A stretch of 64,000 bases of DNA from an uncultured Opitutia bacterium. GTDB taxonomy: Bacteria > Verrucomicrobiota > Verrucomicrobiia > Opitutales > UBA953. The notes beneath the pieces were generated by a model. It worked only from the letters and a program-made list of their open reading frames with translations. It was not told the origin of the DNA and made no database searches. The first letter of the stretch is position 1. Each line of letters starts with the position of its first letter. The stretch is from the NCBI GenBank assembly GCA_903840355.1, contig CAIMFJ010000005.1:434001-498000 (forward strand), in the 5' to 3' direction. Positions 54,529 to 57,076 of this stretch are shown piece after piece. The position numbers were made by a program, and so were the translations under genes.

Positions 54529-55584
54529 ATGGCCAAGGTCCATGCAGTTTCCTTTGATTTAGCCGGTACATTGATTTTTCCCCACCCCTCGGTCGGTAAA
54601 ATCTATGCACAATGCGCGGCTAAGCATGGCATCGCGGTCAACAGCACAGAACTCGACGAACAATTCACGCTCGCGTTACGAGGGACGCCTAAACTAAAGA
54701 ACCCCGAAACTTATTGGCGCGAGGTCGTACTCCGCAGCTTCGGAGCGCAACTCCCTTCGGCCAAATTTGAAGTCGTTTTCCGTGAATGCTGGCAGGTGTT
54801 TGCCGATGAAAAAGCTTGGCGGCTCGCCCCTGGAACCGTGAACACCCTCACGGCCCTACGGTTTCTCGGCATTAAACTGGCAGTACTTTCTAATGCCGAC
54901 GCTCGCATGCACGCGGTCCTCGCCGGCAAAAAACTCACCACACTTTTCGATTTAATTTTATTATCGGAAGAAACCAGCGTTTCCAAACCCGAGGCCAAAG
55001 CATTCCAACTCGTTGCCCAAAAACTACAAGTCGCCACCTCGGCCTTAGTCCACATCGGGGATGACCCCAAAGATGATGGGGAAGGTGCGCGCGATGCGGG
55101 GGCGACTGGAGTTGTCGTGGGCGGAGCCTATGCCCCCGAGCGTTGCTTACGGGCGGAAAAAATGACGGACGTTCCGTTTCTGATTCGAGCCTTAATCACC
55201 GAAGGTCAAGCGAAAGGAAAATTCTCTCGCCACGTCCTGAATTTACTCGCGAACCTCCGCGGCCTGCCCGAGGACGCTAGCCGGTCAAGCCAACGCCCCA
55301 TCAAAACCTTAGACGAAGCCGTACAAGAAGCATTTAAGAAACTACGACTGGATCAGCCAGTTCCCGAAGATGCCATCTTTGCTCACTGGGCTAGCCTACT
55401 CCCGCCCAAACTTGCCAAACGCTGTGCCCCGCTCCGCGTGGTGAATGAAACTAAACTCATCATCCACTGCGAAAACTCCGTGATAAAATCCGAGGTGAAA
55501 TTTCTAGAACGAACCATCCTGGCCAAGATTCGCACCTTGCCGGCTTGTAGTAAAATTCAGAGCTTAACCCTCGTGACAGCCTAG
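54529..55584 (+). CDS. HAD-superfamily domain fused to DUF721/DciA-like domain
   Basis: 351 residues from the ATG at 54529 (frame open to 54457 without family support). Residues 1-235 form a HAD fold of the REG-2/HDHD3-like subgroup. Motif I is VSFDLAGTLIFPHPSVGKIY: the nucleophile Asp9 is present, but Ala11 replaces the usual second Asp. Motif II is LAVLSNADARM, motif III TSVSKPEAKAF, motif IV VHIGDDPKDDGEGARDAG. Residues about 245-351 look like DUF721/DciA: TLDEAVQEAFKKLRL, IFAHWASLLPPKLAKRCAPL, then KLIIHCENSVIKSEVKF and a C-terminal KIQSLTLV strand. DciA loads the replicative helicase. No stop or frameshift separates the halves. The HAD part may be inactive or use other chemistry. Confidence 0.82.
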   Translation: MAKVHAVSFDLAGTLIFPHPSVGKIYAQCAAKHGIAVNSTELDEQFTLALRGTPKLKNPETYWREVVLRSFGAQLPSAKFEVVFRECWQVFADEKAWRLAPGTVNTLTALRFLGIKLAVLSNADARMHAVLAGKKLTTLFDLILLSEETSVSKPEAKAFQLVAQKLQVATSALVHIGDDPKDDGEGARDAGATGVVVGGAYAPERCLRAEKMTDVPFLIRALITEGQAKGKFSRHVLNLLANLRGLPEDASRSSQRPIKTLDEAVQEAFKKLRLDQPVPEDAIFAHWASLLPPKLAKRCAPLRVVNETKLIIHCENSVIKSEVKFLERTILAKIRTLPACSKIQSLTLVTA

Positions 55585-55979
55585 TCGGCGCGACGCTCAG
55601 GCTCGAAAGGTTTCAGGAAGGTCGTCTTAAAATCGTAGACATTCACAAAGGCCTCGAGGCTATCTTCGGGCGAGCGACCAAAGAGCCCCGTTTCGATAAT
55701 ATTAAAAACAATATTACCGACATCCCGCGTGGTCTTGAGCCCCCAGTTTTGCAACAAGGGGTATGACAACGGGCCGTAATTTTCGAGTACGTACTGCCGG
55801 AAACCCTCGAGCAATTGCGGGCCAGAAACGTGACGGTTCGCAATACTCTTCCCTTTCTTCATCTCTCCATGCACCAATTTCTGGGCATGATCTAACGCAA
55901 CGCGTACTAAGTCGTAAGCAGGAACCGCATAGCGATTATCCTTAGCACAAATCTGACGTACGGCGGAATCGAAGTCCAT
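55581..55979 (-). CDS. Minf_1886-family protein
   Basis: 132 residues from the ATG at 55977-55979; a longer frame to 56057 lies inside hisC. The sequence matches the small uncharacterised family named after Methylacidiphilum infernorum Minf_1886 and found in Verrucomicrobia and Planctomycetes: MDFDSAVRQICAKDNRYAVP, then RHVSGPQLLEGFRQYVLENY, GLKTTRDVGNIVFNIIETGL and DFKTTFLKPFEP. It is mostly helical and soluble, with no signal peptide. Function unknown. It begins 8 nt after the hisC stop and probably shares its transcript. Its stop shares CTAG with the convergent HAD-DUF721 stop. Confidence 0.85.
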   Translation of the reverse strand: MDFDSAVRQICAKDNRYAVPAYDLVRVALDHAQKLVHGEMKKGKSIANRHVSGPQLLEGFRQYVLENYGPLSYPLLQNWGLKTTRDVGNIVFNIIETGLFGRSPEDSLEAFVNVYDFKTTFLKPFEPERRAD

Positions 55980-55987
55980 GAAGAGGC

Positions 55988-57076
55988 TTACAAACGGCCT
56001 AACTCGCGTAAAAGGCGAGCGTTTTGTGATTCTGTGCCCACCGTTAAACGCAACCAACCTACCATGCCATAACCCTTTAAGGGACGCACAATGACGCCTA
56101 CTTTTTGTAACTGAGTGAAGGCAGTTTCGGCCTGAGGAATTTGGGCCGCCAAGAAGTTCGCTCGGCCTTCAATGTAATTAAACCCGAGCTGCTTAAGACC
56201 AGCCATGAGCTGAGTTAAGCCCGCCGCATTGACGGCACGGGTTTCGCGCACAAAGGCGTTGTCGTCTAAAGCCGCCTCGGCGGCGGCCAAGGCGGGTAAA
56301 TTAACGTTAAAGGGCTGACGCACGCGATTTAACAAGCTGACCACTTCCGTTGAGCCCATGAGGTATCCAACGCGTAAACCTGCCAATCCATAGGCTTTAG
56401 AGAAAGTACGCGTAACCACTATTTTGCGTCCTGCGGCAATCAACCGACGCAAGTCAACCGCTTCATCGAGATACTCTGCATAGGCCTCGTCTAAGCAAAA
56501 GATAACGTCCTCTGGCAAAGATTGGGCGAGTTGTAAAATATCCTCGGGACGATCCGTTCCCCCGGTGGGATTATTGGGACTAGCCAAGAAAAGGATGCGC
56601 GTCTGGGGCGTCACGGCCGCACGCATAGCGGCTAAATCATGCCGGTAGTGAGGCATCGGCACTTCTACGGGCGTCGCCCCCATCAACAAGGTCGCTAACT
56701 TATAAACAATAAAAGCTTGGGAACCGAACACCACTTCATCCCCGGGACGTAAAAAAGTTTGGGCTAACAAAATCATCACTTCGTTAGAACCATTACCAAT
56801 CACGAAATTTTCGGGTTTTAAGCCCCAATGCTTTGCCAACTTTTCTCGCAAAAACGTGCAACCCCCATCGGGGTATAAGTGACATTGCTTCAGTGCTTGT
56901 TGAGCCGCGGCCAAACCCAAAGGCGAAGGGCCCAAGGGGTTTTCATTCGAGGCCAACTTAATGACCGAAGCAGGGTCCAAGCCAAAATCACGGGCTACCA
57001 CTTCAATCGGACGACCTGCCTCGTAGACGGGTTGCGTCAACACAGGTCGGTTTGCGAGTTCGGAATAAGACGCCAT
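55988..57076 (-). CDS. hisC: Histidinol-phosphate aminotransferase
   Basis: A PLP class I/II aminotransferase of 362 residues in histidine synthesis, transferring the amino group between histidinol phosphate and 2-oxoglutarate. Start chosen at the ATG at 57074-57076 (MASYSELANRPV); ATG at 57088 is possible. Conserved blocks: VIKLASNENPLGPSPLG, FVIGNGSNEVMILLAQTF, FLASPNNPTGGTDRPEDIL, FCLDEAYAEYLDEA, the PLP lysine in VVTRTFSKAYGLAGLRVGY, and the late GWLRLTVGTESQN. HisC-like enzymes also transaminate aromatic amino acids, so a broader role is possible. Followed by the Minf_1886 gene. Confidence 0.93.
   Translation of the reverse strand: MASYSELANRPVLTQPVYEAGRPIEVVARDFGLDPASVIKLASNENPLGPSPLGLAAAQQALKQCHLYPDGGCTFLREKLAKHWGLKPENFVIGNGSNEVMILLAQTFLRPGDEVVFGSQAFIVYKLATLLMGATPVEVPMPHYRHDLAAMRAAVTPQTRILFLASPNNPTGGTDRPEDILQLAQSLPEDVIFCLDEAYAEYLDEAVDLRRLIAAGRKIVVTRTFSKAYGLAGLRVGYLMGSTEVVSLLNRVRQPFNVNLPALAAAEAALDDNAFVRETRAVNAAGLTQLMAGLKQLGFNYIEGRANFLAAQIPQAETAFTQLQKVGVIVRPLKGYGMVGWLRLTVGTESQNARLLRELGRL

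Follow-up and report, generated by a model that had tools for sequence, protein, structure and literature searches.

DciA, whose characteristic domain is DUF721 (PF05258), is the ancestral helicase loader or operator of bacteria; this domain has a KH-like fold, and the protein binds the LH-DH module of DnaB. In Vibrio (PMC9912922) and in Caulobacter (PMC12547741), this protein binds DnaB and single-stranded DNA (ssDNA) and loads the helicase. Moreover, the Caulobacter protein requires the extension N-terminal to its DUF721 both for ssDNA binding and for loading (PMC12547741). The genes dciA and dna[CI] have been described as mutually exclusive (Brezellec et al., PMC5109545). The second group of proteins relevant to the locus described here is that of the haloacid dehalogenase-like (HAD) proteins, whose canonical phosphatases carry a motif I of the DxD type, with a nucleophilic Asp and an acid/base Asp two residues further on (+2). 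The phosphonatase of B. cereus has Ala at this +2 position. Among the HADs that lack Asp at +2, dehalogenases carry Tyr, and plant relatives, whose chemistry is unsettled, carry Tyr, Gly or Val (PMC9876914).

The two groups meet in a single gene of the window, that is, the whole stretch of 64,000 nucleotides from an uncultured Opitutia bacterium that was analysed. Specifically, positions 54529-55584 of the forward strand form a single frame of 351 codons and a stop codon, running from an ATG at 54529 to a TAG at 55582-55584 with no internal stop. Pfam matches a HAD domain (PF00702, 7.1e-22, residues 5-191) and a DciA domain (PF05258, 2.3e-13, residues 261-336) within this one protein, the latter with 50.6 bits against a cut-off of 24. 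The first-pass annotation, made from the letters alone, had proposed that one frame joins a REG-2/HDHD3-like HAD to a C-terminal DUF721/DciA region, and both halves of that proposal are borne out. The features of the gene, in window positions, are the following.

54529..55143, + strand: REG-2/HDHD3-like HAD domain of subfamily IA with a C1 cap, residues 1-205 (PF00702, TIGR02252, 3k1z and the structural model)
54556..54564, + strand: HAD motif I, D10-L11-A12, with the nucleophile Asp kept and Ala at +2 (column comparison of 86 intact HADs)
54889..54891, + strand: HAD motif II, Ser121 (Ser or Thr in 86 of 86 intact HADs)
54985..54987, + strand: HAD motif III, Lys153 (invariant in 86 of 86 intact HADs)
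55057..55077, + strand: HAD motif IV, G177-D178...D183 (Asp183 invariant in all fusions)
55144..55218, + strand: end of the HAD domain and junction, residues 206-230 (structural model and search for internal starts)
55219..55581, + strand: complete DciA, residues 231-351 (PF05258, alignment with free DciA and profile match to 7ykm)

The AlphaFold model of the full 38-kDa product shows two well-predicted domains (mean pLDDT 91.5), the HAD domain reaching about 97 and residues 221-280 being of lower confidence (60-78). The convergent neighbour, at window positions 55581-56057 of the reverse strand, encodes a protein of the Minf_1886 family (TIGR04138, 126 bits), an uncharacterised family of Planctomycetes and Verrucomicrobia; a gene of this family adjoins the fusion in the loci of genus g1 that were checked. 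To our knowledge, no fusion of a HAD with DciA has been described. A full-text literature search pairing DciA with haloacid dehalogenase returned no such description, an earlier mention being nevertheless possible. The reading that we favour, with a probability of roughly 0.65, is that the gene is a dciA fused behind a REG-2/HDHD3-like HAD gene, and that the HAD is auxiliary, its reaction being unneeded for helicase loading.

Judged by its sequence, the C-terminal part of the fusion is a complete DciA. The alignment of residues 231-351 with the free DciA proteins of 120-140 aa found in sister families runs from one end to the other, and FSRxxxNLLAxLRGLPE, which is the N-terminal segment of free DciA in the same order, is present in the fusion ahead of the Pfam domain. 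Moreover, a profile made of residues 231-351 and their relatives matches the solved DUF721 domain of a DciA (7ykm) at 5.9e-5. Residues 261-350 are confidently modelled as helices and strands. A structure search with the DciA half returned HAD matches alone; as these filled the list, the missing DciA match carries no weight.

The genome that contains the window (2.27 Mb, 99.3% complete) has one DciA above the PF05258 cut-off, namely the fusion. A second DciA was rejected, the sole other match being a 39-aa frame with an E-value of 0.5, due to chance. The same genome has one DnaB and a DnaA, and a PF01695 search detected no DnaC/DnaI in it: the sole match above the cut-off (1.3e-10) lies in a frame of 460 aa, which was read from its sequence as DnaA and rejected as DnaC/DnaI. 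In other words, a single chromosomal dciA is found with DnaB present and no DnaC/DnaI found, which is the pattern reported in PMC5109545, and on the exclusion rule established there the fusion protein should be the helicase loader of the organism. By homology, its C-terminal 121 residues, the only DciA available, would bind DnaB and ssDNA and promote helicase loading. As the only DciA of the genome lies in the fusion, helicase loading would have to use a HAD-bearing protein, a dependence that the first-pass annotation had foreseen for the case of a sole DciA.

The fusion is not confined to this genome. A profile search (A1, built from 32 fusion proteins with 80% mean column identity) found it in each of the five genera of family f1, where every readable DciA is part of such a fusion. 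Within the window's genus, the DciAs found are all encoded in frames of 350-400 aa, except one at a contig end and one in a 548-aa frame; the latter (G034, L023/L069) is counted from stop to stop and has about 197 extra residues upstream. One draft genome (G021), which may contain mixed strains, carries two different full fusion genes, on contigs C10 and C29. In the HAD tree the fused HADs form one clade, with support of 100/99. An assembly frameshift joining two genes, a doubt raised together with the original proposal, is rejected on the grounds that dozens of independent genomes share the fusion, and the relatives do keep it. Relatives sampled from the order's other families have DciA as a free protein. 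A survey of 241 genomes of the phylum found no HAD in the eleven long DciA frames that were checked outside f1, the check being weaker for five of them. Specifically, G358, G346, G304, G144, G121 and G049 were rejected as further fusions because they are run-on frames without a HAD. The others (G311, G294, G248, G277 and G281) gave no HAD-model match in the fetched stretch and are less firmly excluded: the DciA model trained on the order missed their DciA too, so that the HAD check is weaker. Two further families of the phylum, f30 and f43, include genomes that are 92-99% complete and have no PF05258 match at 1e-5 (five listed for f30, seven listed for f43); their helicase loader may be a different protein, or a DciA that has diverged strongly.

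The neighbourhood of free dciA genes suggests how the fusion came about. In families f5, f8, f15, f18 and f20 (genomes G040, G043, G050, G053, G055, G099, G105, G119, G129 and G142), the gene that immediately precedes dciA, in the same orientation, encodes a HAD of the same clade. In G040 the stop codon of the HAD gene overlaps the start codon of dciA (ATGA), while the two genes are 14 nt apart in G053 and 18 nt apart in G119, in this last case in the same frame. The HAD gene is apart from dciA in f2, f19, f21 and f24, and the families with adjacent genes are scattered over the HAD tree. The simplest reading would be an old coupling of HAD and dciA within the order, followed by a single fusion through stop loss. 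The adjacency in five other families thus points to a coupled gene pair as the probable source of the fusion: the ancestor would have had the HAD gene directly upstream of dciA, and the stop between them would have been lost in the ancestor of f1, giving one protein.

For the HAD half, the best NCBIfam model is TIGR02252 (REG-2-like), which leads by a wide margin with 141.3 bits; as this score is under the curated cut-off of 155.2, the domain is termed REG-2/HDHD3-like and is not counted as a TIGR02252 member. Among solved structures, the best match is human HDHD3 (3k1z), with a sequence E-value of 3.9e-28, a Foldseek E-value of 1.8e-15 and a Z of 26.2 over 222 residues. The HAD hydrolase residues D10, S121, K153, D178 and D183 are present, and the canonical phosphatase motif DxD is absent, Ala12 being at +2. 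That the nucleophile of motif I is kept and is followed at +2 by Ala had been noticed at the outset; with Met as residue 1, the two residues are Asp10 and Ala12, one higher than the numbers then used (Asp9 and Ala11). The acid/base Asp is indeed missing, as had been claimed, but this is no special feature of the protein, since Asp at +2 occurs in 0 of the 86 intact HADs of the order, fused or free, and human HDHD3 also lacks it (DVKDTL in motif I). Likewise, the relatives share the absence of Asp throughout and not the Ala itself, the +2 residue of the 86 HADs being Ala, Gly, Thr, Val, Ser or Phe. As free HADs and HDHD3 lack the residue too, the change belongs to the HAD clade and not to the fusion; on this comparison, the lack of Asp at +2 is an old, normal state of the clade, and the idea that it marks an inactivation of the HAD by fusion was rejected. 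Normal phosphatase chemistry of the HAD half is doubtful, from which a loss of all activity does not follow.

Apart from the +2 position, the catalytic site is strongly conserved. The nucleophile Asp10, the Ser/Thr of motif II and the Lys of motif III are invariant in 86 of 86 intact HADs, Asp183 is kept wherever it can be read, degenerate HADs included, and the catalytic residues are almost unchanged in 52 of 56 aligned fusions. In genus g1, Asp178 of motif IV is replaced by Asn in 3 of 35 fusions (G025, G029 and G010; L065, L066 and L025), possibly an early step of HAD decay. Simple Nei-Gojobori counts for 117 pairs within the same genus give a median dN over whole-gene dS of 0.105 for the HAD and 0.038 for DciA; both halves are constrained, the loader more strongly.

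A clear exception comes from genus g24. Four of its genomes (G059, G067, G075 and G084; L137, L120, L136 and L134) carry a HAD without the nucleophile, the Ser/Thr, the Lys and most of the cap, which remains in frame and fused to DciA; three other genomes of the genus have an intact HAD. The degenerate HADs form one branch (92/89), which gives moderate branch support for a single decay event. The most reduced protein is predicted to consist of a capless HAD core and DciA, and in L120, L134, L136 and L137 the remnant keeps HVGxDLxxDVNAALAAGMRAAWLAP, the segment with G177 and D183 being conserved. No other REG-2-like HAD was found in the four genomes, where the best matches reach about 50 bits as against 103-152 for true ones in the family; these genomes are drafts, 75-94% complete, and an unseen separate HAD is possible. 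A PF05258 search found no second DciA in them, and in G067 the DciA half of the fusion is itself under the Pfam threshold and is recognised by the A1 profile only. The decay of the HAD in a lineage that retained the fusion indicates that HAD chemistry is probably dispensable for helicase loading.

According to the favoured reading, the HAD half would be an auxiliary module that in most lineages keeps a conserved pocket of the DxA/DxG/DxT type and probably retains its ancestral reaction, separate from loading, whose substrate would be a small phosphorylated or acyl compound. This reaction would not be needed for loading, as one g24 lineage lost the catalytic residues and most of the cap and stayed fused. 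Two observations count against this reading. Purifying selection acts on the HAD in most lineages, as could also be the case if the HAD had a role in loading for which g24 found a replacement; furthermore, the degenerate proteins come from incomplete drafts, with only moderate branch support for one decay.

Among the alternatives, one that we regard as unlikely gives the HAD half a structural, non-catalytic role as an N-terminal extension of DciA (a spacer, a dimer module or a docking module), catalysis being a remnant. Such a role would agree with the g24 proteins, in which the HAD-like core and the G177/D183 segment persist although the catalytic residues and the cap are gone, and with the functional N-terminal extensions of other DciAs (PMC12547741). 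In analogy with Caulobacter, where such an extension is needed for loading, a HAD put in its place could affect loading. A mere spacer, however, would not need the catalytic residues that 52 of the 56 aligned fusions maintain. This same conservation of pocket residues fits a ligand-sensing regulator, as the first-pass annotation had suggested, in which a phosphorylated metabolite, bound or turned over by the HAD, would alter the binding of DnaB or ssDNA by DciA and tie loading to metabolism. In its favour are the age of the fusion and its stability across five genera, the earlier adjacency of HAD and dciA, a state that can point to a functional link, and the importance of the stretch ahead of DUF721 for ssDNA binding and loading in Caulobacter (PMC12547741). 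Nonetheless, the pocket has decayed in g24 with the fusion kept, and in f2, f19, f21 and f24 the HAD gene does not adjoin dciA, so that we consider sensing by the HAD improbable. The bolder version, in which the HAD is a metabolite-gated switch on the only helicase loader, replication initiation answering to a small phosphorylated metabolite and the gate being lost in g24, appears quite improbable. Finally, it is very improbable that the fusion is only apparent, with a free DciA arising from an internal translation start or from cleavage and the halves acting separately: residues 205-260 include a stretch modelled with lower confidence and cleavage is compatible with the sequence, but no conserved ATG/GTG/TTG with an SD-like motif is found at residues 196-265 of 28 orthologs.

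The fusion has implications for both partners. The working mode of DciA, the ancestral helicase loader of bacteria, is still open, and family f1 offers a natural test of its N-terminal extension, with the g24 lineage of decayed HADs separating catalysis from loading. In addition, the fusion and the gene adjacency provide a genomic lead on the little-known HAD clade that includes human HDHD3. Compared with known systems, the HAD half resembles other REG-2/HDHD3-like HADs in keeping the Asp nucleophile without Asp at +2, and differs from them in its score below the family cut-off and in the attached DciA. With other HADs devoid of this Asp, that is, haloacid dehalogenase (Tyr), B. cereus phosphonatase (Ala) and plant HDF1 and its relatives (Tyr, Gly or Val), it shares the nucleophile and a non-acidic +2 residue. 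The DciA half, in turn, is like DciA elsewhere in its complete DUF721 domain, its sole copy and its co-occurrence with DnaB where no DnaC/DnaI is found. Known DciAs, however, have been described as stand-alone proteins whose extensions are unstructured or short and helical, whereas the fusion has a whole HAD domain in front.
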